64,000 nucleotides of DNA from Haloterrigena gelatinilytica (GTDB lineage Archaea; Halobacteriota; Halobacteria; Halobacteriales; Natrialbaceae), in assembly GCF_013342145.1 (NCBI RefSeq), contig NZ_JABUQZ010000001.1, positions 3,782,001 to 3,846,000 of the forward strand. Direction: 5' to 3'. Below, piece after piece: positions 28,920-45,365 of the stretch (the first letter of the stretch is position 1; each line of letters opens with the position of its first letter). Below the pieces are notes generated by a model. It was not told the DNA's origin. It did not search any database and saw only the letters and a list, made by a program, of their open reading frames with translations. The position numbers were made by a program, and so were the translations under genes.

Positions 28920-30356
28920 GTGGCTGATCGTTCGCAATCGCCGCTCGCAGCCGTCCGGTCGGGTGCGTCCCGGGGTCGATCGGCGCTCTCGCGGAACCGC
29001 CTCCGCGTCGTTTTTCTGGCCGTCATCCTCCTCTCGGCCGCCGCCGTGGCGAGCGCGGCGATGAGCGACGACCTCTCGACCGCCTCCGAGGAGGACGTTC
29101 CGGACGCGCCGGCGACCGAGAACCACACGGTCGTAACCGAGTCCGGACGGGCGGGGACGATCACCGTCTACGAGCCCGACGGCGAGGTGGCGTACTACAA
29201 TAACACGCGGACGAAGTACTTCGACGCCGACCCCGTCGAGGGCGACCCGATGACCATCGAGTACACGGCGACGGACACGATCCACAGCGAGGGACCGACC
29301 TGTAGCGACCCGCCGTGCGCGCTGAACGTCATCGAGCGCGTCGACCTCGAGGACGAGAATCCCGAGCCCGAGGTCATCTACGAGCGCTACGACTACAAGG
29401 AGACCGCCGGCGAGTGGCACGACTCCGACCGCATCAACGAGACGCACGTGGTCGTCGCCGACATCGTCGCCGATCAGGTCTTCATCGTCAACACGGAGAC
29501 GGAGGTCGTCGAGTGGCTCTGGGACGCCCAGAGCGACTTCCCCGTCGAGGGCGGCGGCCCGTACCCCGGCGACTGGGCTCACATCAACGACGTCGAGTAC
29601 ATCGACGAGGGCCAACACGAGGGGCGGATCGTGGCCAGCCTCCGGAACCAGGACCAGGTCGTCTTCCTCGACCGGGAGGAGGGACTGGTCGAGAACTGGA
29701 CGCTGGGCAGCGAGAACGACTACGACGTCCAGTACGAACAGCACAACCCCGATTACATCCCCGAATCACAGGGCGGGCCGGCGATCGTCGTCGCTGACTC
29801 CGAGAACGGCCGCGTTCAGGAGTTCCATCGCGAGGACGGCGAGTGGAACCGCACCTGGCAGTGGGAGGACGACCGGATTCAGTGGCCCCGCGACGCCGAC
29901 CGCCTCCCCAACGGGAACACGCTCATCGCCGACAGTCACGGCAACCGCGTGATCGAGGTCAACGAGTCCGGCGACATCGTCTGGGAAGTCGGATCGACCC
30001 TCCCCTACGAGGCGGAACGCCTCGAGACCGGCCCCGAAAGCGAGGGCGGGCAGAGCGCGGCCGAACTCGGCCTCGAGTCGCGCACGGTCGACGACAGCGG
30101 CGGCGGAGGCGGGAGCAGTGGCCTCTTCGGCTTCGATCCGCTCGGCTGGGCCGGCGACCTCCTCGAGGATCTCCTGCCACACCGGATCCACAACGGACTG
30201 CTGTTCGCGTCGCCGGTCTGGATGGGCGCCTCCGAGTTCGCGGCCGTCGGCATCGCGATCCTGACCGGGCTGGCATGGCTCGGGATGGAGACCCGATGGA
30301 AACTCCGCGACGCCGGCGTTCGGTTCCGCCTGCCCGTCTACCGGCGGGGCGACTGA
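28920..30356 (+). CDS. arylsulfotransferase (ASST)-like beta-propeller membrane protein
   Basis: A 478-residue protein starting at a GTG at 28920. An N-terminal signal-anchor helix (VVFLAVILLSAAAVASAA, about 30-47) is followed by an extracytoplasmic beta propeller (about 65-375) with WD-like blades: VVADIVADQVFIVN, WAHINDVEYIDEGQHEGRI, DRLPNGNTLIADSHGNRVIE. One C-terminal membrane helix lies near 440, and a short basic tail ends it. The fold matches the arylsulfotransferase/ASST family, which in bacteria moves sulfate between phenols. The catalytic His cannot be assigned with confidence, so activity is uncertain. It is likely linked to the LssY-like neighbour. Confidence 0.75.
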   Translation: MADRSQSPLAAVRSGASRGRSALSRNRLRVVFLAVILLSAAAVASAAMSDDLSTASEEDVPDAPATENHTVVTESGRAGTITVYEPDGEVAYYNNTRTKYFDADPVEGDPMTIEYTATDTIHSEGPTCSDPPCALNVIERVDLEDENPEPEVIYERYDYKETAGEWHDSDRINETHVVVADIVADQVFIVNTETEVVEWLWDAQSDFPVEGGGPYPGDWAHINDVEYIDEGQHEGRIVASLRNQDQVVFLDREEGLVENWTLGSENDYDVQYEQHNPDYIPESQGGPAIVVADSENGRVQEFHREDGEWNRTWQWEDDRIQWPRDADRLPNGNTLIADSHGNRVIEVNESGDIVWEVGSTLPYEAERLETGPESEGGQSAAELGLESRTVDDSGGGGGSSGLFGFDPLGWAGDLLEDLLPHRIHNGLLFASPVWMGASEFAAVGIAILTGLAWLGMETRWKLRDAGVRFRLPVYRRGD

Positions 30357-30444: not shown

Positions 30445-31428
30445 TCAGCGGGTCGCCGTGTACGCGAGAAACACCGCCGTGCCGAGCGCCGCGGCGTACC
30501 ACAGCGTCCCCACGCGGATCACGACCGTCGCGGCGGCCGCGACGGCTTCGGGGTAGCCGAACGTGAGCAACACGCCGACCATCGACGCCTCCGCCGCCGC
30601 GAGTCCGCCGGGCAGCATCGACACCGCTCCGACGACCGATCCGAGGCCGAAGACGAACAGCCCGATCACGACGCTGGTTTCGACGCCGAACCCGTCGAGC
30701 ACCAGCCAGAGCGCGACGCCCTCCAGACCCCACGCCGCGAGACTGACCAGCGTCGCGACGACCAGCGGGCGGAACCGAAACAACTGGTACGCGCTCTCGT
30801 AGAACCGCTCGAGTTCGGTCGCGTACTCGCCGACGACCGGGAGCGACTCGAGTCGCGCGAGGATCGCCAGACAGGCCCGTCGCCACTGGAGCAGGCCGAT
30901 CCCGGCTCCGATGGCGCCGAGAACGGCGACGATGGGGAGCGACGAACGGCTGTAGACCAGCAGGCCGAGCGCGGCCATCGCGCTGAGCGCGATGAGATCC
31001 GTGATGCGCTCGGCGCCGACGACGGAGGTGGTCTTGCTCGCGGGGACCCCGCGCGTATCGCGGAGGAACCACGCCTTCCAGACCTCGCCGGCCTTCCCCG
31101 GCGTGACGACCATCATCAGGCCGCTGAAGAAGGCGATGGCGCTCGCCTCGAGCGGAACGTCTACCTCGAGGCGCCGGAGGTAGTAGTGCCACTTGGCGAA
31201 GCGGAAGCCGTAGCCGATCGTCGTCAGGCCGATGACGGTCGCGAACGTCCGCCAGCGCAGGGTGGCGAGGGCGTTCGTCACGTCGCCGACGTTCGCGTAG
31301 GCGGCGAGGCCGAGGAAGACGGCGACCGAGAGCAGCGCCGTCAGCCAGACGCCGTGATCGCGGACGACCCGCCGGCAGCGGTCGACGACGCTCCGACCGA
31401 CCCCGCCGGCCTCACCGCTCGTCGTCAC
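30445..31428 (-). CDS. lysylphosphatidylglycerol synthase-like (UPF0104/AglD-type) membrane protein
   Basis: A 327-residue polytopic protein with about eight membrane helices. It has the UPF0104 family landmarks WRTFATVIGLTTIGYGFRFAKWHYYLR, FFSGLMMVVTPGKAGEVWKAWFLRD, ERITDLIALSAMA and SMLPGGLAAAEASMVGVLL. It has the flippase-like membrane domain without the soluble synthase domain. Related haloarchaeal proteins (AglD group) have been tied to surface glycan assembly, so a role in moving or handling polyprenyl-linked sugars is plausible. Its start overlaps the PHP gene stop by 4 nt, in a UbiA-PHP-UPF0104 operon. Confidence 0.85.
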   Translation of the reverse strand: MTTSGEAGGVGRSVVDRCRRVVRDHGVWLTALLSVAVFLGLAAYANVGDVTNALATLRWRTFATVIGLTTIGYGFRFAKWHYYLRRLEVDVPLEASAIAFFSGLMMVVTPGKAGEVWKAWFLRDTRGVPASKTTSVVGAERITDLIALSAMAALGLLVYSRSSLPIVAVLGAIGAGIGLLQWRRACLAILARLESLPVVGEYATELERFYESAYQLFRFRPLVVATLVSLAAWGLEGVALWLVLDGFGVETSVVIGLFVFGLGSVVGAVSMLPGGLAAAEASMVGVLLTFGYPEAVAAAATVVIRVGTLWYAAALGTAVFLAYTATR

Positions 31429-32105
31429 GGTGATCGCCTCGAGGTGAGCGCCGCGACGACGCGACCGGAGGCGGTGCGGAACTGGTGGAGTTTCGTCGCG
31501 ACGTGCCCGGAGAGGTATCGTCCGCGACCGCCCGGACGCACGCGCCCGTCGCGTACCGCGTCCGCGAGCGATCCGGCGCCCTCGACTCGGGTGTACGCGC
31601 GGCCGACTTCCATCGGGAAGTGAGCGTCGCTGCCGCCGGTCGCCGGCAGGTCGCGAGCGGCCGCGAACGAGGCCGCGCGCTCGTTGAACCGGCGGCGAAC
31701 GCAGCGGGAGTTCACCGCTTCGACCCCGTCGACGGCGTCGGCGAGGGCCTCGAGGTCCGTCTCGTAGCGCTGTCGCAGCGCGTCGAACGGATGCGAGAGG
31801 ACGGCGACGCCGCCCTGCTCGTGGACCCGGTCGACCACCGTCAGCGGATCGGCTCGAGGCGGCGCCTCCGTCACGTCGAGGGCCAGCAGGTGGCCCTCGG
31901 TCGTCGTCACTTCGACGCCGGCGACAACGTCGAGATCGGCCGGCGCGGCGTCCCGGACGGCGGCGACGTTGGCCAGCGTGTCGTGGTCGGTGACGGCGAT
32001 GCCGTCGAGTCCGGCCTCGACCGCCGCCGCGGCCACGCGCTCGGGCGGCGTGCTCGAGCAGGGCGAGGCGTCCGTGTGCACCTGGAGATCGTATCGTCGT
32101 GTCAT
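31425..32105 (-). CDS. PHP-domain phosphoesterase
   Basis: A 226-residue PHP domain with the metal motifs in order: LQVHTDAS (His10, Asp12), VTDHDT (Asp40, His41), AGVEVTT (Glu65), VLSHPFDA (His105) and GGSDAHF (Asp160, His162). These build the trinuclear metal site of PHP phosphoesterases. It is cytoplasmic with no signal. It lies 31 bp after the UbiA gene and is coupled to the UPF0104 gene. That suggests its substrate is a phosphorylated product of the UbiA enzyme, for example the 5-phosphate of polyprenyl-phospho-ribose-5-phosphate. This is inference. Confidence 0.85.
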   Translation of the reverse strand: MTRRYDLQVHTDASPCSSTPPERVAAAAVEAGLDGIAVTDHDTLANVAAVRDAAPADLDVVAGVEVTTTEGHLLALDVTEAPPRADPLTVVDRVHEQGGVAVLSHPFDALRQRYETDLEALADAVDGVEAVNSRCVRRRFNERAASFAAARDLPATGGSDAHFPMEVGRAYTRVEGAGSLADAVRDGRVRPGGRGRYLSGHVATKLHQFRTASGRVVAALTSRRSP

Positions 32106-32136
32106 GGCGGGCTCGATTTGGAGCGGGGTGAGACGG

Positions 32137-33051
32137 TCACGCGATCACCTCGAGGAGTCGGGGCGGGACCCGGTACAGGACCGCGACGACGAGAAGCCCC
32201 CAGACGACGAGATTGATGAGAAACGGGGGATCGGCGAAGAGGAACTTCGGGTCGCCGCCCAGCGTTCGCGTGTAGACGAGGAGGTGGTAGCGGAAGGTCG
32301 CGAAGAAGGCGAAGGGGAGCGTGGTCATCATCCACGGACCGCCGCGGAAGAACGTGTAGAGCGAATAGGAGACGAGCAGCGCCGCCAGAACGACGACGAG
32401 CCACTGGTCGAGCGTCTCCTCGGTGTACTCGGCGAGGGTCGCGCGCGACGCGGCCGGATCGTCGCTGACGACCATCTCGTGGCGGCGCTTGCCGAGCGCG
32501 AGCATGAGCGCCCCGAGGAACGTACAGACGACGAGCCAGGGGCTCAGGGAGACGTCGATGGCGACGACGCCGGCGACGGCCCGCAGCACGAACCCGATGG
32601 CGATGACCATCACGTCGACGATGACGACCTCCTTCAGAAACGCGGAGTAGAGCGCGTTCTGTACGAGGTACGCGCAGACGACGAGCAGGAACAGCGGGCC
32701 GAGGTACCAGGAGAGGGTGAGACCGCCGGCGAAGAGCAGGATCGCGAACGCCACCGCCACGGAGACCGGGACCCGTCCGCTGGCGATGGGGCGGTGTTTC
32801 TTTCGCGGGTGGTTGCGATCCTCCTCGATATCGAGGATGTCGTTGCCGATGTACGTCGTGCCCGCGACGGCACAGAAGGCGACGATCCCGAGGGCGACGT
32901 TCGTGACGGCGACCGGATCGAACAGGCTCCTGGAGAAGACGAGCCCCACGAGCAGTATTCCCTGCTTGTACCACTGCCAGGGGCGTATCTCCCTTACCAG
33001 ACCGGAGACGGTCACCGCGACCCGACTCCGGTCGGCGTAGGCGCGGTTCAT
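32137..33051 (-). CDS. UbiA-family prenyltransferase, decaprenyl-phosphate phosphoribosyltransferase-like
   Basis: A 304-residue membrane protein with about nine helices. The N-terminal REIRPWQWYKQGILLVGLVFS and the metal-binding GNDILDIEEDRNHPRKKHRP IASG region match the DPPR synthase branch of UbiA (Mycobacterium Rv3806c type) rather than quinone or lipid prenyltransferases. The second motif lies at GKRRHEMVVS and YTEETLDQ. This branch moves phosphoribose from PRPP onto a polyprenyl phosphate. The start is ATG 33051. It is the first gene of the UbiA-PHP-UPF0104 operon. Confidence 0.82.
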   Translation of the reverse strand: MNRAYADRSRVAVTVSGLVREIRPWQWYKQGILLVGLVFSRSLFDPVAVTNVALGIVAFCAVAGTTYIGNDILDIEEDRNHPRKKHRPIASGRVPVSVAVAFAILLFAGGLTLSWYLGPLFLLVVCAYLVQNALYSAFLKEVVIVDVMVIAIGFVLRAVAGVVAIDVSLSPWLVVCTFLGALMLALGKRRHEMVVSDDPAASRATLAEYTEETLDQWLVVVLAALLVSYSLYTFFRGGPWMMTTLPFAFFATFRYHLLVYTRTLGGDPKFLFADPPFLINLVVWGLLVVAVLYRVPPRLLEVIA

Positions 33052-33414
33052 CCGTCTGTCCTCCCACACAGGTCGGCAAAAAGATCGGGCTTGCCTGTAA
33101 CGGATCTGCGGCGCTACGCTACCGCTTCCCGACGTCAGGCGCCCGGAAACGCGCGCGTGCCGCTCGCTCGAGCAGCGACCGACCGTGGCGCAACGCGGGT
33201 AACTCACCGGATCGCCGTACGCCGAATCACCGCTCGGTTAGCGGCCGACTGACTCGGTTTCACGGGGCGAACGGTCGCTCGTCACGAGCGCGCCGCCCGC
33301 GCTATCGCGCCCCGATCCGCCGGTTCGCGGTCCGCGAGGGGATCGAGCCACGTACGGCCCGCAAAACGCCGATACACTATTGAGGCGCCGTGTTGACGTC
33401 CAGTTTGATTCACG
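33052..33414. other. intergenic stretch between divergent glycan genes
   Basis: 363 bp between the divergent UbiA and epimerase starts. It must hold both promoters. I see a weak ACACTATTGA element about 35-45 nt before the epimerase ATG at 33415 but no strong TATA box, palindrome, tRNA or convincing small gene. Confidence 0.5.
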
Positions 33415-34503
33415 ATGAGCGATAGTGAGCGCGCCGACGACTCGAGCGGCTCGCTTCTCGTCACCGGGGGGACCGGATTCCTCGGCCTGCACGCGTGCCA
33501 GTACTTCCGCGACCGGGGATGGGACGTCACCGCGTTCGATCTCAAGCCGTTCGAGCCGGACGACGATACGGACGGAATCGAGTTCGTCGAAGGGGACGTT
33601 CGAAGCGAGGCGTCCGTCGCCGACGCGCTCGAGGAGAGCGACGCCACCGCGGTGGTGCACACGGCGGCCGCGCTCCCGCTGTGGGACGCCGACCGCATCC
33701 GAGAGACGACCGTCGACGGGACGCGAAACGTGCTCTGGGCGGCGAACGACCGCGACGTCGAGCGGGTCTGTTACGTCTCCTCGACGGCGGTGTACGGAAC
33801 CCACGACACGCACCCCATCACCGAGGAGTCGCCCCTGGACGGGGTCGGCCCCTACGGCGAGGCCAAGATCGAGGCCGAGAAGGTCTGTCAGGACTTCCGC
33901 CGCATGGGGATGTGCGTCCCGATCGTTCGCCCGAAGACGTTCATCGGCCCGCAGCGACTCGGCGTGTTTCAGGTGCTGTTCGACTGGATCGAGGACGGCG
34001 CGAACGTTCCGCTCGTCGGCCGGGGGAACAACCGCTACCAGCTGCTACACGTTCGCGACCTCGTCACCGCCATCGAACTGCTGCTCACCGAGGACGAGGA
34101 ATCGGTGAACGACACGTTCAACGTCGGTACCGACGAATTCGGTACGATGAAGGAGGACTTCCAGGCCCCGATCGACTACGCGGGGACGGGCAAACGAACC
34201 ATCGGAACGCCCGCCTTCCTCACGGTCGCGGTCCTCCGCGTACTGGACGAACTGAACCTCTCGCCGCTGTATCCGTGGGTCTACGAGACGGCCCACGAGG
34301 ACTCCTACGTCTCCGTCGAGAAGCTGAAGGATCTCGGCTGGGAGCCAGAGTACTCCAACCAAGAGGCGCTCGTGGAGACCTACGAGTGGTACCTCGAGAA
34401 CTACGAGGCCGACGAGGTGGCCGACGAGAGCGGCTTGGACCACCGCGTCGCGTGGGACCAGGGCGCCCTCGCCGTCGCGAAGAAGATCTCGCAGCGGATC
34501 TGA
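33415..34503 (+). CDS. NAD-dependent epimerase/dehydratase
   Basis: A 362-residue extended SDR. It has TGGTGFLG (residues 17-24) for NAD(P) binding, VVHTAAALPLWDADRIRET in the place of the NNAG motif, a catalytic Ser/Thr in VSSTAVYG, and Tyr-Lys in PYGEAKIEAEK. Conserved LVGRGNNRYQLLHVRDLVTAI is typical of nucleotide-sugar or polyprenyl-sugar epimerases. The last 60 residues form a variable substrate domain. It is 1 bp from the GT-C gene downstream, so the two are coupled. The sugar is unknown. Beside the UbiA enzyme, a ribose-to-arabinose-type epimerisation is one possibility. Confidence 0.87.
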   Translation: MSDSERADDSSGSLLVTGGTGFLGLHACQYFRDRGWDVTAFDLKPFEPDDDTDGIEFVEGDVRSEASVADALEESDATAVVHTAAALPLWDADRIRETTVDGTRNVLWAANDRDVERVCYVSSTAVYGTHDTHPITEESPLDGVGPYGEAKIEAEKVCQDFRRMGMCVPIVRPKTFIGPQRLGVFQVLFDWIEDGANVPLVGRGNNRYQLLHVRDLVTAIELLLTEDEESVNDTFNVGTDEFGTMKEDFQAPIDYAGTGKRTIGTPAFLTVAVLRVLDELNLSPLYPWVYETAHEDSYVSVEKLKDLGWEPEYSNQEALVETYEWYLENYEADEVADESGLDHRVAWDQGALAVAKKISQRI

Positions 34504-34504
34504 G

Positions 34505-35860
34505 ATGACCGTCCGCTCGCGTCTCCCGTCTCGCAGTCCGTGGTTCGCCGTCCTCGGTCCGATCGTCGCCGTCCTGTTCGTCGTCGGGTTCGGCAGGCAC
34601 CTGCTCGTCGACTGGCCGACGATCGCGACCGACCCGGCGTTCTTCCAGCACACGGGTTGGTACGTCCTCGAGGGCGGCGTACCGTACGTCGACGTCTGGG
34701 ACGTGAACCCGCCCGTTCCGTTCGGAATCGCGGCCGCGCTCGCCGCCCTCTCCGGCGGGAACATGCTCGTTTTGCACGGTCTCGGAGCGACGCTCACGAC
34801 GCTCGTCGCAGCCGCGAGCGTCCCGCTCGTCGGGTGGATCGCCCGCCGCGTGACCGGGGACGACGCGGCGGCGATCGCCGCCGGCCTCACGATGCTCGTC
34901 GTGCCGGAGCTCTTTCTCCTCTCCCCGGAAGGCGTTCGAGCGCAGTTCTATGCGCTGTTTTTCGGCGTCCTCGCGCTCGCGCTGGCCCTCCGCGATAGGC
35001 CGTTCCTCGCCGGGGCTCTCGCGGCGCTGAGCGCAGGGTCGTGGCAGTCGGGGGCGGTTTTTGCGCTGCTGGTCGTCGGGATGGCGTACCAGCGAACCGG
35101 CGGGAAGGACGCGCTCTCGGCGGTCGCCGGCGGCGCCGTCGTCACCGGTGCCGTCGTCCTCGCGTTCGCGGCCACGGGGGGGCTCGTTCCCATGGTCGTC
35201 CAGACGGTGGTCGCCCCGCTGACCGCCGGATCGTCGTACACCCTGGCCGAGCGCGTCTACACGATACTGCTGGTGTTCGGCTACGGAACGGTGCTCCTCC
35301 CGGTCGCGCTCTACGGCTGGGCGCGCGCCGTCGTCCGCGATTTCCGAGCGCAGTGGTGGGTTCCGGCGGGCGGCGTGTTACTCACCGTTCAGGTGCTGTT
35401 CGTCGACTTAGACGGCTCGACGGACGCGCTTCTCTGGCTCGCGTTCGTCGCGCTCGGCGTCGCCGTCGCCGTCGATCGCGGTTTCGGACGGCGACCGGCG
35501 ACGACGGACCGCCGCGATCGCGACGCGACGCGGACGAACCGAACTCCGTGGGCGGCCGTGGCCGTCGTCGCCGTCGTCGGCCTGCTCGTCCTCTCGGGAC
35601 TGGTCTGGCACTTCGGCTCGCCGGCTCCGCAGTCGACGCTCCGGACGATGCAAGCGGAGGCCGAGACGGACGAGGACCTCCCGATTTCGCCGGGCGACGC
35701 GGACGTCCCGTCGATGCAGACGATCTACTGGGAGCAGGCGAAACCGGAGACCTGTCACTACCGACTGAGTTGGAACGAGGTGCGGTGGATCGCGATAACC
35801 GACGACCGACTGAACAGGCGGCAGTGTGACGCGTGGCCGAGTCGAATCGACCGCGGCTAG
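34505..35860 (+). CDS. GT-C type membrane glycosyltransferase (DolP-mannose mannosyltransferase-like)
   Basis: A 451-residue protein with about 11 membrane helices and a soluble tail of about 80 residues. The first extracytoplasmic loop contains PAFFQHTGWYVLEGGVPYVDVWDVNPPVPFG, with acidic residues placed as in the catalytic loop of GT-C enzymes that use lipid-phosphate sugar donors. This matches haloarchaeal DolP-mannose mannosyltransferase-like annotations, though the actual sugar is not set by sequence. It starts 1 bp after the epimerase stop. Confidence 0.75.
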   Translation: MTVRSRLPSRSPWFAVLGPIVAVLFVVGFGRHLLVDWPTIATDPAFFQHTGWYVLEGGVPYVDVWDVNPPVPFGIAAALAALSGGNMLVLHGLGATLTTLVAAASVPLVGWIARRVTGDDAAAIAAGLTMLVVPELFLLSPEGVRAQFYALFFGVLALALALRDRPFLAGALAALSAGSWQSGAVFALLVVGMAYQRTGGKDALSAVAGGAVVTGAVVLAFAATGGLVPMVVQTVVAPLTAGSSYTLAERVYTILLVFGYGTVLLPVALYGWARAVVRDFRAQWWVPAGGVLLTVQVLFVDLDGSTDALLWLAFVALGVAVAVDRGFGRRPATTDRRDRDATRTNRTPWAAVAVVAVVGLLVLSGLVWHFGSPAPQSTLRTMQAEAETDEDLPISPGDADVPSMQTIYWEQAKPETCHYRLSWNEVRWIAITDDRLNRRQCDAWPSRIDRG

Positions 35861-35921
35861 CGGGTCGGCGTTCGGCACGGTCGCGCGGATTCGACCGACG
35901 GAGACGCCGAGGGTGGCTCTA

Positions 35922-37496
35922 TCAGCCACCCGACGTCCGCTCGAACTCGACGACTACGATTCCGTTGTACCGGTTCACCTGTACCGGCCCCCGGTACTCG
36001 GCGCGGCTCTCCACCGCCTCGAGAATCCGCTGGTTGGTCGACGAATCGGTGTACGAGAGCACGATCCAGACGTCGTCGTGTCCGTCGACGGACGCCCGTA
36101 TCTCGTCGGCCGACGCGTCGGGCGGGATCCGAACCGTGGGCGCGACCGATCGGTCGAAGTAGTAGCCGAACGTCCGCTCCGTGAACGGCCTGCTCACGAG
36201 GACGACGTCGTCGCCGTCGACGCTCGACTCGACGTCGGCGGCGGCCGCCCGCCACTGCTCTTTCTGGTCGTCCTGATAGTACGCCGGGAGGGGCGCCGCG
36301 AGACCGACGAGGAGCACCCCGACGACGACGTACCGAAGCGACGGGCGAGAGATCGTCCGCACGCCGATCGCGATCAGGAGGAAAAACGCCAGCGACGCCC
36401 CGATCGAGTAGCGATCCACGAAAATCGGCGTGACGACGTGCGAGAGGGCGATCGGGACGAGTATCGGCACGACGAACCAGAGGAGAACCACGTACACGGC
36501 GTTTACCGGCGTGTCCTCGCGGTCGGTCGCCGTCGTCGCACCCGACGCATCGCGGTCGGTCGCCGTCACCGCGTCCCGGCCGCTCGAGAGCGCGAGCACC
36601 AGACAGCCGACGACGACGAGCGAGACGAGAACCGGGAACGACTCCTCGAACAGCTGTCCGCCGAGATACGCGGCGAACGTCCCTCTGACCGTCTCGCCCG
36701 TCGGTAGCGGAATCCACGAGACGTTGCCCGTATCGCCGGCGCTGGCCGCCACCGTTCGGCGGAGCAGCCTCACTAGCCACGGGAGGAGGAGCAGGGCGGT
36801 GACTCCTTCGAGGGCGATCCAGCGGCGGAGCGTCAGCCGCGAACGAGGGACGGTCCGGACCAGATACCGGGAGAAGACGTACGCGTTCTGGGCGAGTATC
36901 GCGAACAGCCCGAAGACGTGGGTATAGCCGAGGAGGACCGTGGAGACAACGTACCAGATATCGTCCCGAATGCCGGTCTCGTCGGTCGATTCCGCCGTCT
37001 GCAGTCGCACGAACCAGTAGAACGAAAGGACGGTCAGCAGCCCGAGCAGATTGTACATTCGCACTTCCTGCGAGTACCAGACGTGGAACGGTGAGACGGC
37101 GACGAGCACCGCGGCGATCGCTCCGACTTGCCTGTCGAAGAGTCGTCGACCGACCCCGTAGAGGACGACGACGGTGGCAACGCCGACGAGAGCCGACAGT
37201 AGTCGCGTCGCCAGTTCGCCCGTTCCGAAGACCGTCGTCCAGCCGGACAGGAGGAGGTAGTAGAGCGGCGGATGGGGGTCGTTCCCCGGTACGCTGACCA
37301 GGAGTTCGAACGGCGTGTTCGACGTGACGATGGTCACCGAGACGACTTCGTCGACCCAGTAGCTCTCGGACTCCAGCCGGAACAGCCGCAGCGCGGCCGC
37401 GACGAGGACGATCGGATACAGTTCGACCGGGACGTCCGCCAGTGATCGATCCCGGCTACCCTCACCGTCCGTCTCGATCGGCAGGGACGGCGACAT
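35922..37496 (-). CDS. glycosyltransferase family 39-like membrane protein
   Basis: A 524-residue GT-C protein. After a short cytoplasmic tail it has the GT39/ArnT signature SESYWVDEVVSVTIVTSNTPFELL with the catalytic acidic pair at Asp-Glu, then NDPHPPLYYLLLSGW, and about 11 membrane helices to residue 400. The C-terminal 120 residues are a soluble extracytoplasmic domain (VVLVSRPFTERTFGYYFD). It probably transfers a sugar from a polyprenyl-phosphate donor to a surface glycan or protein. It is convergent with the GT-C gene at 34505. Confidence 0.83.
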   Translation of the reverse strand: MSPSLPIETDGEGSRDRSLADVPVELYPIVLVAAALRLFRLESESYWVDEVVSVTIVTSNTPFELLVSVPGNDPHPPLYYLLLSGWTTVFGTGELATRLLSALVGVATVVVLYGVGRRLFDRQVGAIAAVLVAVSPFHVWYSQEVRMYNLLGLLTVLSFYWFVRLQTAESTDETGIRDDIWYVVSTVLLGYTHVFGLFAILAQNAYVFSRYLVRTVPRSRLTLRRWIALEGVTALLLLPWLVRLLRRTVAASAGDTGNVSWIPLPTGETVRGTFAAYLGGQLFEESFPVLVSLVVVGCLVLALSSGRDAVTATDRDASGATTATDREDTPVNAVYVVLLWFVVPILVPIALSHVVTPIFVDRYSIGASLAFFLLIAIGVRTISRPSLRYVVVGVLLVGLAAPLPAYYQDDQKEQWRAAAADVESSVDGDDVVLVSRPFTERTFGYYFDRSVAPTVRIPPDASADEIRASVDGHDDVWIVLSYTDSSTNQRILEAVESRAEYRGPVQVNRYNGIVVVEFERTSGG

Positions 37497-37724: not shown

Positions 37725-38249
37725 TCACAGGGCCAGCAGATAACCGCCGAACAGGTAGAGGGCGGCGAGGATCGACTGGAAGGAAAGCGAGCCGAGCGCC
37801 GACAGCGCGACGAACGTCCGGCCGTCCATCTCCGAGAGCCCTGCGGGAATCGTGAGCAGCCCCCTGACGACCAGCATCGTGTTACTCGCGGCGACGGCGA
37901 TCCCGCCCCAGCGGTCGAACCAGCCGTCGAAGCGCTCGAGTCGCGACTCCGTGAGGGGGAACCACCGCTTCTGGATGACGTACTCCCGCCCGGCGCGGCG
38001 GACGAGACAGAACAGCAGGAACTGACCGATCGTCGTCCCGACGACGGCGACGGCGACGATCGCGACCGTTTCCGGGATCGACGATCCGATTAGCGCCAAC
38101 GCGGACGGCACGACCAGTTCGCTCGGCATGAACCGCAGCATCATCGCGCCCTCGAGGATGCAGATCCCGAGCAGGACCGCGAACGCGAACTCCGACGTGA
38201 ACAGCGACTCGAGCCAGCCCGGCATCCCCTCGAGTTGCAGCGGTACCAT
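37725..38249 (-). CDS. DedA-like (VTT domain) membrane protein
   Basis: 174 residues and about five hydrophobic segments. The DedA features are the glutamate in ICILEGAMMLRFMPSELVVPSALALIG, the glycine-rich TTIGQFLLFCLVRRAGREYV, FDRWGGIAVAASNTMLVVRGLLTIPAGLSEM and a C-terminal hydrophobic helix. DedA proteins act in membrane-potential homeostasis and lipid carrier (polyprenyl-phosphate) recycling in bacteria. The second role would suit this glycan region. Somewhat shorter than bacterial DedA, it keeps the core. Confidence 0.8.
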   Translation of the reverse strand: MVPLQLEGMPGWLESLFTSEFAFAVLLGICILEGAMMLRFMPSELVVPSALALIGSSIPETVAIVAVAVVGTTIGQFLLFCLVRRAGREYVIQKRWFPLTESRLERFDGWFDRWGGIAVAASNTMLVVRGLLTIPAGLSEMDGRTFVALSALGSLSFQSILAALYLFGGYLLAL

Positions 38250-39402: not shown

Positions 39403-40422
39403 TCACTCGAGGGCCTTGACGCCGAAGGCGGACACCGAGAGGCCGCCGATCAGGATGGGCATCCAGTAGATCGCCCCGCGGAAGATGAGTACGGCCGCGG
39501 TGACCGTCGACGCCGGGATGCCGGTGGTCGGCACGAGCAGCGTGACGAAGGCGGCTTCGATACCGCCGAGCCCGCCGGGGAGCGGAGCGGCGCCCGCGAG
39601 GTTCGCGAGCGGGATCGCGAACAGCAGGATGTACGGCGCGACGGGTTCGCCCAGCGCGGCGAAGGCGGCCATGAGCGCGACCGTCTGGAAGAGCCAGCCG
39701 GCCAGCGAGAGACCGACGACGGCGGAGAGTCGCCAGCGATCGGTCGAGACGCGCTCGATGTTTTCGAAGAAGCGGCCCATCCGATCGGTCAGGTCCGCCT
39801 CGAGCGTGTCGCTCTGGAAGCGGGCGAGCCCGAGGCGACCGAGACGGGGGGCGATGACGGCCGGCAGCCGCTCGGTGAGCGCGTGCCGGTGTCGCCAGAC
39901 GAACGCCATGGCGAGGACGATCGCCGCGATCAGCACGACCGCCGAGCCGACGGCCGTCTCGAGGCGGTCGCCGACGGCGGCGGTGGTCCCGTAGTAGCCG
40001 ACCCCGACGAGGATCAGCGAGATCGAGGGGACGACGTTGAGCACGTCGACGCTGGCGATCCCGGCCAGCCCCGTCTCGTAGCGCGCGTCGGCGGTCTTCG
40101 AGATGAGCAGCGCCGCGACCGGCTCCCCACCGGCCTGGCCGAACGGCGTGACGTTGTTGGCGAAGACGGCGCCGGCGTAGACGAAAAACGCCTTGACGAC
40201 CGACAGCTCGACGTCGAGGGCGACCAGTACGGTCCGGAGCATCAGGCTCCACGCGGCCAGCCAGCACAGCGCGAGGGCGAAGGTCGCGACGACCAGCGAG
40301 GGCGCGGCCGAGAACAGCGTGTCGATGACGTCGCGCGCACCGACCGCGAAGAACAGCACGGCGAAGACGGCGAGCGCGCCGAACGCGCCGATGAGGAGCC
40401 GCCGCCGATTTCGCTCGTTCAT
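39403..40422 (-). CDS. lysylphosphatidylglycerol synthase-like (UPF0104) membrane protein
   Basis: A 339-residue polytopic protein with about eight membrane helices. UPF0104 landmarks are VKAFFVYAGAVFANNVTPFGQAGGEPVAALL, ASVDVLNVVPSISLILVG and LANLAGAAPLPGGLGGIEAAFVTLL. It is the second member of this family in the region (the other is at 30445) but clearly a different subfamily. It is probably a lipid- or glycolipid-handling membrane protein, function inferred. It is divergent from the sulfatase-like gene at 40588. Confidence 0.83.
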   Translation of the reverse strand: MNERNRRRLLIGAFGALAVFAVLFFAVGARDVIDTLFSAAPSLVVATFALALCWLAAWSLMLRTVLVALDVELSVVKAFFVYAGAVFANNVTPFGQAGGEPVAALLISKTADARYETGLAGIASVDVLNVVPSISLILVGVGYYGTTAAVGDRLETAVGSAVVLIAAIVLAMAFVWRHRHALTERLPAVIAPRLGRLGLARFQSDTLEADLTDRMGRFFENIERVSTDRWRLSAVVGLSLAGWLFQTVALMAAFAALGEPVAPYILLFAIPLANLAGAAPLPGGLGGIEAAFVTLLVPTTGIPASTVTAAVLIFRGAIYWMPILIGGLSVSAFGVKALE

Positions 40423-40564: not shown

Positions 40565-40587
40565 GATGGACTCAGTTGTCTCCCGTA

Positions 40588-42201
40588 ATGGACGACGCTC
40601 AGCAATCCAACGTCCTTTTCGTCGTGCTGGATACGGTCCGCAAGGACCGACTGGGTCCGTACGGCTACGAGCGGGAGACGACGCCCGAACTCTCCGCGTT
40701 CGCAGAGGAGGCGACCGTCTTCGAGTCGGCCGTCGCGCCCGCGCCGTGGACGCTACCGGTCCACGCCTCGCTGTTTACCGGCCGGTACCCGAGCCAGCAC
40801 GGGGCCGATCAGGGGAGTCCGTACCTCGAGGACGAGACGACCCTCGCGTCGATCCTCTCGGCGGCCGGCTACGACACGGCGTGTTACTCCTCGAACGCCT
40901 GGATCACCCCCTACACCGGACTCACCGACGGGTTCGACGCGCAGGACTCGTTCTTCGAGGTCCTCCCCGGCGACGTCCTCTCGGGGCCGCTGGCCAGCGC
41001 CTGGCAGACGGTCAACGACAACGACTACCTCCGCGATCTGGCGTCGAAACTCGTCAGACTCGGCGCCATGGCCCACGAGAAGCTCGCCAGCGGCGAGGGC
41101 GCCGATACGAAGACGCCGTCGGTCATCGACCGGACGAAGTCCTTCGTCGACGACAGCGAGAGCGACGAGGGGTGGTTCGCCTTCGTCAACCTGATGGACG
41201 CTCACCTGCCCTACTATCCGCCCGAGGAGTACCGCGAGGAGTTCGCTCCCGGCGTCGATCCGGGGTCGGTCTGCCAGAACTCGAAGGAGTACAACTCGGG
41301 CGCCCGCGACATCGACGGCGAGGAGTGGGAGGCCATCCGCGGGCTCTACGACGCCGAAATCGCCCACATGGACGCCGAACTCGGCCGCCTGTTCGACTGG
41401 CTGCGCGAGACCGGCCAGTGGGAGGAGACGACCGTCGTCGTCTGCGCCGACCACGGCGAACTCCACGGCGAACACGACCTCTACGGCCACGAGTTCGCCC
41501 TCTACGACCAGTTGATCAACGTCCCGCTGCTGGTCAAACACCCCGCACTCGAGGCCGACCGACGCGACGACCTCGTCGAGTTGCTCGACTGCTATCACAC
41601 GGTCCTCGAGGCGCTGGACGTCGATCCCGCCGACGCGCTCGCGCCGGCGGACGACGGCTCCGTCGCCGGCCGCGATCCGACGCGATCCCTGCTCTCGAGC
41701 GAGTATCGGGCCTTCGAGGCGGCGCCGGAACCGGATCCCGGACAGCGGGCGGTGCTCGACGCCGCGAGCGACGAGGCGTCCGACGATACCTCGAGCAGCG
41801 ACGGGGCTGACGACTACGCGTTCGTCGAGTACGCCCAGCCGGTGATCGAACTCCACCACTTAGAGGAGAAGGCCAGCGAGGCCGGGCTCGAACTGCCCGA
41901 CGACCACCGTGCCTACTCCCGCCTGCGCGCGGCCCGCAGCACCGACGCGAAGTACGTCCGGGCCGACCGCATCCCCGACGAGGGGTACCGACTCGACGAG
42001 GACCCCGCGGAATCGACGCCCGTCGATCCGGCCGACGACGAGGTCGTCGCCGCCGCCGAACGCGCGCTCGCCCGCTTCGAGCGGGCCGCCGGCGGCGCGT
42101 GGGTCGATCCCAGCGAGACGGACGCCGAGGACGCCGACGCGCTGGCCGAGGCCGACGAGGAGACCCGCGACCGCCTGCGCGAACTCGGCTATCTCGAGTA
42201 G
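40588..42201 (+). CDS. sulfatase-like alkaline-phosphatase-superfamily hydrolase
   Basis: 537 residues. The N-terminal NVLFVVLDTVRKDRLGPYGY supplies the first metal Asp. The nucleophile region is APWTLPVHASLFTGRYPSQHG. The second metal site is VVVCADHGELHGEHDLYGHE. This is the sulfatase branch of the alkaline-phosphatase superfamily. The residue aligned with the Cys/Ser converted to formylglycine is Thr55, so it is not a classical formylglycine sulfatase and may be a phosphoesterase or phosphotransferase. There is no signal peptide. An acidic C-terminal domain of about 150 residues is variable. It sits with two GT4 genes. Confidence 0.82.
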   Translation: MDDAQQSNVLFVVLDTVRKDRLGPYGYERETTPELSAFAEEATVFESAVAPAPWTLPVHASLFTGRYPSQHGADQGSPYLEDETTLASILSAAGYDTACYSSNAWITPYTGLTDGFDAQDSFFEVLPGDVLSGPLASAWQTVNDNDYLRDLASKLVRLGAMAHEKLASGEGADTKTPSVIDRTKSFVDDSESDEGWFAFVNLMDAHLPYYPPEEYREEFAPGVDPGSVCQNSKEYNSGARDIDGEEWEAIRGLYDAEIAHMDAELGRLFDWLRETGQWEETTVVVCADHGELHGEHDLYGHEFALYDQLINVPLLVKHPALEADRRDDLVELLDCYHTVLEALDVDPADALAPADDGSVAGRDPTRSLLSSEYRAFEAAPEPDPGQRAVLDAASDEASDDTSSSDGADDYAFVEYAQPVIELHHLEEKASEAGLELPDDHRAYSRLRAARSTDAKYVRADRIPDEGYRLDEDPAESTPVDPADDEVVAAAERALARFERAAGGAWVDPSETDAEDADALAEADEETRDRLRELGYLE

Positions 42202-43271: not shown

Positions 43272-44261
43272 ATGAAGATCAGCCACTACTTCGAACTCGA
43301 GGAGCACGTCACCGGCGGCATCCGCGAGTCGGTCGTCCACCAGCGGAAGATGCTGGATCGGCTGGACGTCGAGTACACGACCGAGCCGACGCTGGACGCC
43401 GACGTCCTCCACTGTAACCTCATGGGACCGCGCTCGGTCTGGTACGCGCGGCGGGCGCGATCGCGGGGGATCCCCGTCGTCGCCCACACCCACGTCACCG
43501 CCGAGGACTTCGGGGACAGCTTTCGGTTTACCAACGCGCTCGCGAGGCCTCTGAAACCGTACCTCGAGTGGGCCTACGGGCTGGCCGACGCGCTGGTCTG
43601 TCCCTCCGAGTACAACCGACGGCTGATCGAGACGTACACCGACGCGAGGACGACCGTCGTCTCGAACGGCGTCGACGGCGAGAAACTCGACGGGTTCGAG
43701 TCCCTCGAGGCGGAGTACCGCGAGCGCTACGACCTCGAGTCGCCGACGGTCTTCCTCGTCGGCCACGTGATCAAGCGCAAGGGTCTCGAGACGTTCGTCG
43801 AACTGGCCCGCCGGCTGCCCCACCTCGATTTCGCGTGGTTCGGCCCGCTGGACCTCTCGCTCAAGGGTCGAGAAACGACGCGGCTCATCGAGGAGTCGCC
43901 GGACAACTGCACGTTCACCGGCTACGTCGACGACATCCGCGGCGCGTTCGCAGCGGGAGACATCTTCTGTTTCCCCACCCACGAGGAAAACGAGGGCATC
44001 GCGCTGCTGGAAGCGATGACGGCCGGCAAACCGATCCTCGTCCGCGACATCGAGACGTTCTCCTGGCTCGAGGACGGCGAGGACTGTCTGAAGGTGGCGG
44101 CGTCGGACGCCGGCGTCGACGCGTTCGCAGACGCCATCGAGCGACTCGAGGACCCAGACCTCCGGGAGCGACTCGGATCGAACGCAGCCGAACGGAGCGA
44201 GGCGTTTACGCTCGAGTCGGTCGCGAACCGGTACCAGACACTTTACGACGAGGTGACCTGA
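43272..44261 (+). CDS. glycosyltransferase family 4 protein
   Basis: A 329-residue GT-B fold enzyme. The N-terminal Rossmann half has a glycine-rich TGGIRESVV loop. The C-terminal half has VVSNGVDGEKLDGF, TVFLVGHVIKRKGLETFVELARRL and the GT4 donor motif FPTHEENEGIALLEAMTAGKPILVRD, with the E-x7-E pair. It is cytoplasmic and uses a nucleotide-sugar donor. Its stop abuts the ATG of the next GT4 gene, so the two are co-translated and probably act in sequence. Confidence 0.87.
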   Translation: MKISHYFELEEHVTGGIRESVVHQRKMLDRLDVEYTTEPTLDADVLHCNLMGPRSVWYARRARSRGIPVVAHTHVTAEDFGDSFRFTNALARPLKPYLEWAYGLADALVCPSEYNRRLIETYTDARTTVVSNGVDGEKLDGFESLEAEYRERYDLESPTVFLVGHVIKRKGLETFVELARRLPHLDFAWFGPLDLSLKGRETTRLIEESPDNCTFTGYVDDIRGAFAAGDIFCFPTHEENEGIALLEAMTAGKPILVRDIETFSWLEDGEDCLKVAASDAGVDAFADAIERLEDPDLRERLGSNAAERSEAFTLESVANRYQTLYDEVT

Positions 44262-45365
44262 ATGAAAATCGGTTTCTTTACGGACAGTTACTTCCCCGAG
44301 ATCGACGGCGTCACGTATACGATCAAACTCTGGCGCGAGGAGTTAGAACAGGACGGACACGAGGTGTACGTCGTCTACCCGGACGGCGACTACGAGCCCG
44401 GCGACCGCGAGATCCCGGTCAAATCGGTGTCCAATCCGTTCTACCCCGGCTATCGGATTCCCGTGTTCAAACGCCCGTCGACGCTGCCGGAGCTGGACGT
44501 CGTCCACTGTCACGGGCCGGCGACGGTCGGCGTACTCGGGCGGTACTACGCCCGGAAACACGATCTGCCCGCGGTGTACACCCACCACACGCCGATCGAG
44601 GAGTACTTCCACCAGAACGTCAAGTTCGAGTCGATCGCCGACGCGCTCTCGAGGCTGTACGTCCCGCTGGAGAACGCGCTCCTCCGGAGCTTCGATATCG
44701 TCACCGCCTCCACGAGCCGAATCGAACGCGACGTGGAACACGTTCAGCTCCCCGTCGGCATCGACATGGAGTTCTTCCAGCCGACCGACGAGGACTGGTA
44801 TCCCGACCGGACCGTCATCGGCTACAGCGGTCGGCTCAGCATGGAGAAAAACGTCAGTGAGATCCTCCGCGTCGCCGAGACGCTCCCGGAGTATGACTTC
44901 GTCATCGTCGGCGACGGCCCCTACCGCGACTGCCTCGAGCGCGAGGCGCCCGACAACGTCGAGATCCGCGGCTTCCTCCCCCGCGAGGAGCTGCCGATCT
45001 TCTACTCCTCGATCGACGCGTTCGTCACCGCCTCGACCGCCGACACGCTCGGGCTCTCGACGCTCGAGGCCAACGCCTGCGGCACGCCCGTCGTCGCGTC
45101 CGACGTCCCGCCGTTCGACCGGACGATCGGGCCCGACAACGGCGAGCGGTTCGCCTACGGCGACCTCGAGGCGATGGCCGACGCCGTCGAACGCTGTCTC
45201 CGGTCGGATCGGGACACGCGGGCGGCCATCGAACGCTACGACGTCCGGCAAACGCTCGAGCACCTCGAGCACCTCTATCGGACCGTCCGATCCTCGGGAA
45301 CCGCGTCTCCGACGGACGTCACCGACGACTGGTTCTCCGACGACTCGCACAGTTCGCCGAAGTAA
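44262..45365 (+). CDS. glycosyltransferase family 4 protein (glycolipid synthase-like)
   Basis: A 367-residue GT4 enzyme. The N-terminal FFTDSYFPEIDGVTYTIKLWREEL motif and YTHHTPIEEYF are typical of diacylglycerol or alpha-monoglucosyl-lipid type GT4s. In the donor half are GYSGRLSMEKNVSEILRVAE, VIVGDGPYRD and ASTADTLGLSTLEANACGTPVVASD (E-x7-E variant). A role in glycolipid synthesis is inferred from subgroup resemblance. It begins at the base after the upstream GT4 stop codon. An acidic C-terminal tail of about 20 residues is present. Confidence 0.87.
   Translation: MKIGFFTDSYFPEIDGVTYTIKLWREELEQDGHEVYVVYPDGDYEPGDREIPVKSVSNPFYPGYRIPVFKRPSTLPELDVVHCHGPATVGVLGRYYARKHDLPAVYTHHTPIEEYFHQNVKFESIADALSRLYVPLENALLRSFDIVTASTSRIERDVEHVQLPVGIDMEFFQPTDEDWYPDRTVIGYSGRLSMEKNVSEILRVAETLPEYDFVIVGDGPYRDCLEREAPDNVEIRGFLPREELPIFYSSIDAFVTASTADTLGLSTLEANACGTPVVASDVPPFDRTIGPDNGERFAYGDLEAMADAVERCLRSDRDTRAAIERYDVRQTLEHLEHLYRTVRSSGTASPTDVTDDWFSDDSHSSPK

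Follow-up and report, generated by a model that had tools for sequence, protein, structure and literature searches.

Lipid-linked pentose donors made from phosphoribosyl pyrophosphate (PRPP) are known from the tuberculosis bacteria and from a small number of others; no report of a PRPP-to-dolichol pentose route in archaea was found in the open-access literature. In this study, we analyzed a locus of the archaeon Haloterrigena gelatinilytica, contained in a 64,000-nucleotide stretch of contig NZ_JABUQZ010000001.1 (the window, whose numbering is used throughout), in which genes for a UbiA-superfamily enzyme, a PHP-family phosphoesterase and a UPF0104 membrane protein face genes for a short-chain dehydrogenase/reductase (SDR) and a GT-C glycosyltransferase. 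Our results indicate that this haloarchaeal locus is probably a module that makes a lipid-linked pentofuranose donor and includes a dedicated glycosyltransferase acting outside the cell. An earlier reading of the DNA alone (the original prediction) had proposed a polyprenyl-phosphate-pentose pathway here and, by comparative genomics, was right in its core.

The described system closest to this locus is the three-component pentofuranose system of Citrobacter youngae O1/O2 (ORF12-ORF15; PMC11127046), in a report that mentions archaea nowhere in its main text except in the title of a cited work. Both sets appear to comprise a PRPP-dependent UbiA-type synthase, a dedicated phosphatase (putative in the archaeal set), an optional single SDR that sets the identity of the sugar, a flippase and a GT-C enzyme. 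They differ in the protein families recruited: the Citrobacter system employs a HAD phosphatase fused to UbiA, a MATE flippase and a GT136 transferase, whereas the archaeal locus encodes a PHP protein, with no HAD PRP domain in the operon, an MprF-type UPF0104/LPG_synthase_TM protein where the MATE flippase would stand, and PF15971/GT39 enzymes. The expected carrier also differs, being dolichyl phosphate in an archaeon. The mycobacterial decaprenyl-phospho-arabinose pathway (Rv3806c, Rv3807c, DprE1/DprE2, Rv3789, Emb/Aft) resembles the locus in its homologous first enzyme, with the same active-site residues, and in the use of a lipid-phosphate-linked pentose by GT-C enzymes. However, its phosphatase and proposed flippase belong to other families, and its epimerization requires two enzymes, DprE1/DprE2, while no DprE1-type ALO domain is encoded here. 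The Citrobacter system is a closer parallel than the mycobacterial precedent invoked by the original prediction. Among archaea, the Haloferax dolichyl-phosphate (DolP)-mannose branch ending in AglS is similar in that a DolP-mannose mannosyltransferase draws on a DolP-linked monosaccharide at the cell exterior. Its donor is made by a GT2 DolP-mannose synthase that uses a nucleotide sugar, not PRPP.

In the pathway that we infer, as regards every catalytic step, the dolichyl phosphate carrier, the sugar and the acceptor, the UbiA enzyme would move 5-phosphoribose from PRPP to dolichyl phosphate at the cytoplasmic face of the membrane, with release of pyrophosphate, and the PHP protein would remove the 5-phosphate to yield dolichyl-phosphate-ribofuranose. 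The SDR would epimerize part or all of this product to another pentofuranose, the MprF-like UPF0104 protein would flip the donor to the outer leaflet, and a variable GT-C enzyme (here the PF15971 protein and/or a GT39 enzyme encoded nearby) would attach the pentose to a glycan or glycoprotein of the cell surface. Sequence comparison itself shows the family of each protein, the retained substrate site of UbiA, the layout of the operon and the shared inheritance of its genes.

The UbiA protein (PF01040, E = 1.9e-31) surpasses the curated equivalog cut-off of NF008977, decaprenyl-phosphate phosphoribosyltransferase (244.9 bits vs 234), and falls below those of the like-named NCBIfam sister models, NF008978 and NF008976; NCBIfam models for geranylgeranylglycerol-phosphate geranylgeranyltransferase give it 19-39 bits. 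In a phmmer search of the PDB, the best match was Rv3806c of Mycobacterium tuberculosis (8j8j; 5e-35), followed by digeranylgeranylglyceryl phosphate synthase (2e-4). In Rv3806c, the pyrophosphate of PRPP is bound by R22, K87, R90, K143 and Y138, magnesium by N73 and D77, the ribose by N73 and Q135, the 5-phosphate by K28, Y70 and Y157, and decaprenyl phosphate by K28, Y157 and K191 (PMC10994848). Ten of the 12 positions checked (K208 was not scored) are identical in the UbiA of the window, the exceptions being Q135 (N132) and Y157 (F154). The same ten residues (R22, K28, Y70, N73, D77, K87, R90, Y138, K143 and K191) are kept wherever covered in 27 haloarchaeal rows of the alignment and in 6/6 other archaeal UbiAs; Q135 varies. 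Nearly all of the binding residues are also kept in 44 bacterial rows (there is one K143Q), and the Phe found at Y157 in the haloarchaeal rows recurs in 41 of these 44. Four other UbiAs of the genome, by comparison, lack K28 and K191 and mostly Y70. A quick tree with SH-aLRT support separates the decaprenyl-phosphate phosphoribosyltransferase-like rows from the other UbiAs of the genome (95) and unites the haloarchaeal members in one clade (100). Because the branches to the other UbiAs and to Rv3806c are long, placement within the bacterial set is not settled by this tree; it is possible that the haloarchaeal enzyme was acquired from bacteria by transfer.

These data bear on whether the protein is instead an ordinary prenyltransferase that serves to make ether lipids or quinones, which we regard as very improbable. 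Such enzymes belong to the same superfamily, PF01040, and haloarchaea need several of them; this genome (4.55 Mb, 99% complete) encodes seven UbiA members besides the one at 32137-33051, and some Chloroflexi relatives adjoin GHMP-kinase and amino-acid-kinase-family genes that could be isoprenoid genes. The NCBIfam scores, the PDB search, the tree and the retention of PRPP-specific residues all oppose this identity, on which grounds it was rejected, and an enzyme found in only about 9% of haloarchaeal genomes is too rare for core lipid synthesis. The assignment to the decaprenyl-phosphoryl-ribose synthase type, already made in the original prediction, is one on which these lines of evidence agree, the protein grouping with those synthases and not with ether-lipid or quinone enzymes. 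Among the Chloroflexi, a GHMP-kinase-family gene follows the related UbiA gene in L085 and L086, and L086 also has an amino-acid-kinase-family gene; these are possibly isoprenoid kinases.

Across 242 haloarchaeal genomes, the UbiA occurs in 22 (10/73 genera), and the SDR (E<=1e-60) occurs in exactly the same 22. The PHP orthologue, delimited by a clear score gap (E<=9e-43, next >=5e-36), and the UPF0104 protein are found in those genomes and in one more, G066 (23/242). Carriers include Natrinema zhouii, Natrialba asiatica, Natronorubrum thiooxidans, Natronococcus jeotgali, Halococcus morrhuae, Haloarcula amylolytica, Halalkalicoccus paucihalophilus and Halocatena. Within at least eight genera, carriers and non-carriers occur side by side, implying that the module genes are gained or lost together. 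In all 23 other haloarchaeal survey loci, UbiA, PHP and UPF0104 are adjacent in constant order and strand, which argues against a chance arrangement, and an SDR-family gene lies beside the trio. In one of these, the second module copy of genome G169, the SDR frame is broken into two pieces with internal stops (L055:6585-7591), and in L052 and L053 the SDR is of a more divergent type. The latter two modules each hold two SDR genes, one of them co-directional with UbiA and 9-10 bp upstream of it. Three metagenome-assembled genomes of Halobacteriales (L066-L068) contain the trio with no SDR match.

The genome with PHP and UPF0104 alone proved to be informative. At its locus (L056:7457-9284), both genes are intact and the SDR is missing, and directly upstream of PHP lies a C-terminal UbiA fragment of 72 residues (residues 233-303), 60% identical to the UbiA of L041. 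This lone piece marks the locus as decayed, and PHP-UPF0104 as an independent unit was rejected, the sole UbiA-less genome among the 23 being one that holds a UbiA remnant. Judged by this distribution, UbiA, PHP, UPF0104 and SDR are one unit. Of the two outcomes that the original prediction named as refuting it, a UbiA that groups with ether-lipid or quinone enzymes and a PHP gene conserved in the absence of UbiA, neither was observed. The conservation that the original prediction called for thus extends to these four genes, while the GT-C partner varies.

Could the SDR and the GT-C enzyme nevertheless act in some unrelated pathway of nucleotide sugars, as mere neighbours of a UbiA-PHP-UPF0104 lipid operon? 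The SDR, which carries TGxxGxxG and YxxxK motifs (TGGTGFLG and YGEAK), points away from the operon in most of the haloarchaeal loci, its sequence tells no substrate, and the trio is found without an SDR relative both in L066-L068 and in seven loci of other archaea linked to DUF362, described below. Against this stand the identical occurrence of SDR and UbiA in 22/242 genomes and the presence, in L153 and L166, of a related SDR in one gene string and co-directional with UbiA; we consider a chance neighbourhood of this kind quite unlikely. If the SDR is part of the donor module, trios without it are what would be expected of an accessory epimerase, for which Citrobacter ORF13 is the precedent (PMC11127046).

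With respect to the sugar, the known epimerizations are that by DprE1/DprE2, leading to arabinofuranose, and that by the single Citrobacter SDR ORF13, leading to xylofuranose (PMC11127046). No DprE1-type ALO domain (PF04030) was detected in the whole genome, whereas control genomes, including that of Corynebacterium glutamicum, were matched. Arabinose by the mycobacterial route is therefore unlikely, and a DprE1-type route was rejected. Of the ribose- or arabinose-modified glycans originally envisaged, the arabinose is thus not favoured, there being a single SDR and no DprE1; by analogy with Citrobacter, ribofuranose or a single-SDR epimer such as xylofuranose would fit better. The simplest reading is that ribofuranose would be the product at SDR-less loci and an epimer elsewhere.

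Outside the Halobacteria, seven genomes from other orders of the phylum (L149-L152, L167-L169) combine UbiA, PHP and UPF0104 with a DUF362 (PF04015) protein, assigned by Pfam in L149-L152 and by 66-70% identity in L167-L169. One other gene intervenes between UbiA and PHP in L150 and L167-L169. The DUF362 protein may provide another sugar- or lipid-modifying step. In bacteria, DUF362 is directly linked to UbiA in three loci (L087, L100 and L130, two of them from Latescibacterota). A tblastn search of 64 bacterial UbiA loci found no PHP, UPF0104 or HAD-GtrA partner, and a bacterial PHP-UPF0104 partner set was rejected.

Two further loci show the trio in altered form. In L153, UbiA is followed by a HAD-GtrA fusion (PF12710 + PF04138), an SDR with 54% identity to that of the window, and a GT39 enzyme. 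L166 (3747-11474) encodes UbiA, HAD, a methyltransferase, an SDR (85% identical to that of L153), a second SDR, an FAD enzyme, GtrA and a 529-aa multi-transmembrane protein, which has no Pfam match and, judging from its N-terminus, is taken for a GT-C enzyme; the string looks like a complete modified-pentose pathway. Like the window, both unite a related UbiA and SDR with a GT39 or GT-C-like enzyme. They differ in having HAD and GtrA in the place of PHP and UPF0104, and in the additional SDR, methyltransferase and FAD enzyme of L166. In Citrobacter, 5-dephosphorylation is carried out by HAD phosphatases, and GtrA proteins are proposed polyprenyl-phosphate-sugar flippases (PMC11127046). This exchange, in which UbiA and SDR stay, is the strongest argument that PHP acts as the 5-phosphatase and UPF0104 as the flippase, and it lends support to both roles as first predicted.

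The UPF0104 protein matches PF03706 (1.4e-42 over 285 residues) and the flippase-like model TIGR00374, and has approximately eight transmembrane segments. On the basis of genomic context, translocation of lipids or lipid-linked sugars has been predicted for archaeal proteins related to the flippase domain of MprF (Makarova et al., PMC5898192). A second UPF0104/LPG_synthase_TM gene lies near the module (39403-40422), adjoined on the opposite strand by a sulfatase gene (40576-42201). In six loci, UPF0104 is flanked by a VTT-domain protein (cluster c7), and a VTT/DedA gene is also present at L041:5699-6394; in bacteria, DedA proteins are candidate polyprenyl-phosphate recyclers (PMC9876793).

The GT-C enzyme of the window, with about nine transmembrane segments, belongs to PF15971, and a PF15971 gene comes next after the SDR in the surveyed loci from the window's family. 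Elsewhere, this position is occupied by GT39 (L049-L051 and L153), by PMT_2 or by unassigned multi-transmembrane proteins, and in Halococcus loci no such glycosyltransferase directly follows the SDR. The GT39 enzymes of L049-L051 and L153 are 37-39% relatives of the GT39-like protein encoded at 35922-37496 of the window. An acceptor-specific modification system would be expected to look like this, the donor module staying constant while the GT-C enzyme varies. The description of PF15971 is DolP-mannose mannosyltransferase, and AglS of Haloferax is, we presume, a member. AglS has DolP-mannose mannosyltransferase activity (PMC4973528) and, together with the family description, this supports the use of a dolichyl-monophosphate donor.

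Several observations weigh against the pathway as we have drawn it. At the ribose position of the UbiA site, Q135 of Rv3806c is Asn in the haloarchaeal proteins. The GT-C partners differ between lineages, and the structure model of the window's GT-C enzyme is of low quality and unusable (predicted local distance difference test score, pLDDT, 43). The exchange with HAD and GtrA is seen in two genomes, L153 and L166. In the literature, we found no report of pentofuranose in the glycans of these species, nor of pentoses in haloarchaeal glycans or exopolysaccharides. Finally, the first His of the HxH motif of PHP is Gln (Gln8) in all haloarchaeal members (the window and L033-L072), giving the motif D-L/F-Q-x-H, where His stands in the PHP proteins of the other archaeal operons and in a paralogue from the same genome; with the metal site so altered, activity is not assured.

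This last point raises the alternative that a dolichyl-phosphate-ribose donor is made but that PHP is inactive, regulatory or a nuclease, with another cellular phosphatase acting in its stead. The AlphaFold2 model of PHP (pLDDT 91) matches in fold TM0559, RNase AM, PsfC and 2yb1 (with Mn, AMP and phosphate), and its closest fold and sequence matches include an exoribonuclease, RNase AM. In Citrobacter, some dephosphorylated product was still formed by the D18A variant of ORF15, in which the phosphatase nucleophile is missing (PMC11127046). On the other hand, the remaining metal-site residues of PHP (H10, H41, E65, H105, D160 and H162) are conserved, D40 being Asn in some members. The gene stands between UbiA and UPF0104 at every intact haloarchaeal locus, and PHP and UPF0104 outlast UbiA in the decaying locus. 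Since a HAD phosphatase moreover substitutes for PHP in L153 and L166, we judge an uninvolved PHP to be unlikely. We somewhat favour, over its negation, the full proposal of an archaeal PRPP-dependent dolichyl-phosphate pentofuranose pathway in which the Gln-site PHP protein is the phosphatase, the MprF-family protein is the flippase and the pair is interchangeable with HAD/GtrA.

If this is correct, the PRPP-to-lipid-pentose route extends to archaea, two enzyme families become newly tied to it (replacements by PHP and UPF0104 that are well supported, though unproven), and pentofuranose would be predicted in the surface glycans of Natrialba asiatica, Halococcus morrhuae, Natrinema, Natronococcus jeotgali and Halalkalicoccus. 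The locus would also offer a genetic system in which to test the flipping of dolichyl-phosphate sugars by MprF-like UPF0104 proteins, which are common in archaea and are predicted but unproven glycosylation flippases.

The features of the locus are listed in Table 1. The frames of all six genes named in the original prediction are intact and gave family matches, bearing out the tight UbiA-PHP-UPF0104 operon facing SDR and GT-C with GT39 nearby. On the minus strand, 31 bp separate UbiA from PHP, and PHP and UPF0104 overlap by 4 bp; the SDR is divergent from UbiA at a distance of 363 bp, and GT-C begins 1 bp past the SDR stop. UbiA starts at the ATG at 33051, with an alternative GTG upstream (33207) possible.

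Table 1. Features of the putative pentofuranose donor locus and its flanks in the window
Feature	Position	Strand	Basis
UbiA-superfamily polyprenyl/dolichyl-phosphate 5-phosphoribosyltransferase (DPPRS/PPPRS type), putative	32137..33051	-	304 aa; NF008977, Rv3806c match, PRPP-site residues, tree
PHP-family phosphoesterase, proposed 5-phosphate phosphatase on dolichyl-P-ribose-5-P	31425..32105	-	PF02811/PF13263
LPG_synthase_TM / UPF0104 (MprF flippase-domain family) membrane protein, proposed lipid-linked pentose flippase	30445..31428	-	PF03706, TIGR00374
Extended SDR, proposed epimerase of lipid-linked ribofuranose	33415..34503	+	PF01370 1.4e-43; TGGTGFLG, YGEAK
GT-C glycosyltransferase, DolP-mannose mannosyltransferase family, proposed acceptor-specific pentosyltransferase	34505..35860	+	PF15971 2e-29
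GT39/PMT_2-like GT-C glycosyltransferase, probable second or alternative transferase	35922..37496	-	PF13231 6e-16
VTT/DedA-domain membrane protein, possible dolichyl-phosphate recycling partner (tentative)	37725..38249	-	PF09335 3.5e-12
Arylsulfotransferase-like (ASST) protein, may sulfate glycan (tentative)	28920..30356	+	PF05935 5.5e-9; cluster c5

A search against PHROGs, a collection of phage protein families, returned nothing relevant. Of the flanking genes, that for the ASST protein is a recurrent neighbour, its cluster being present in 8 loci. Further along the window, two adjacent genes for family-1-type glycosyltransferases (43272-45365) perhaps belong to the same surface-glycan region.

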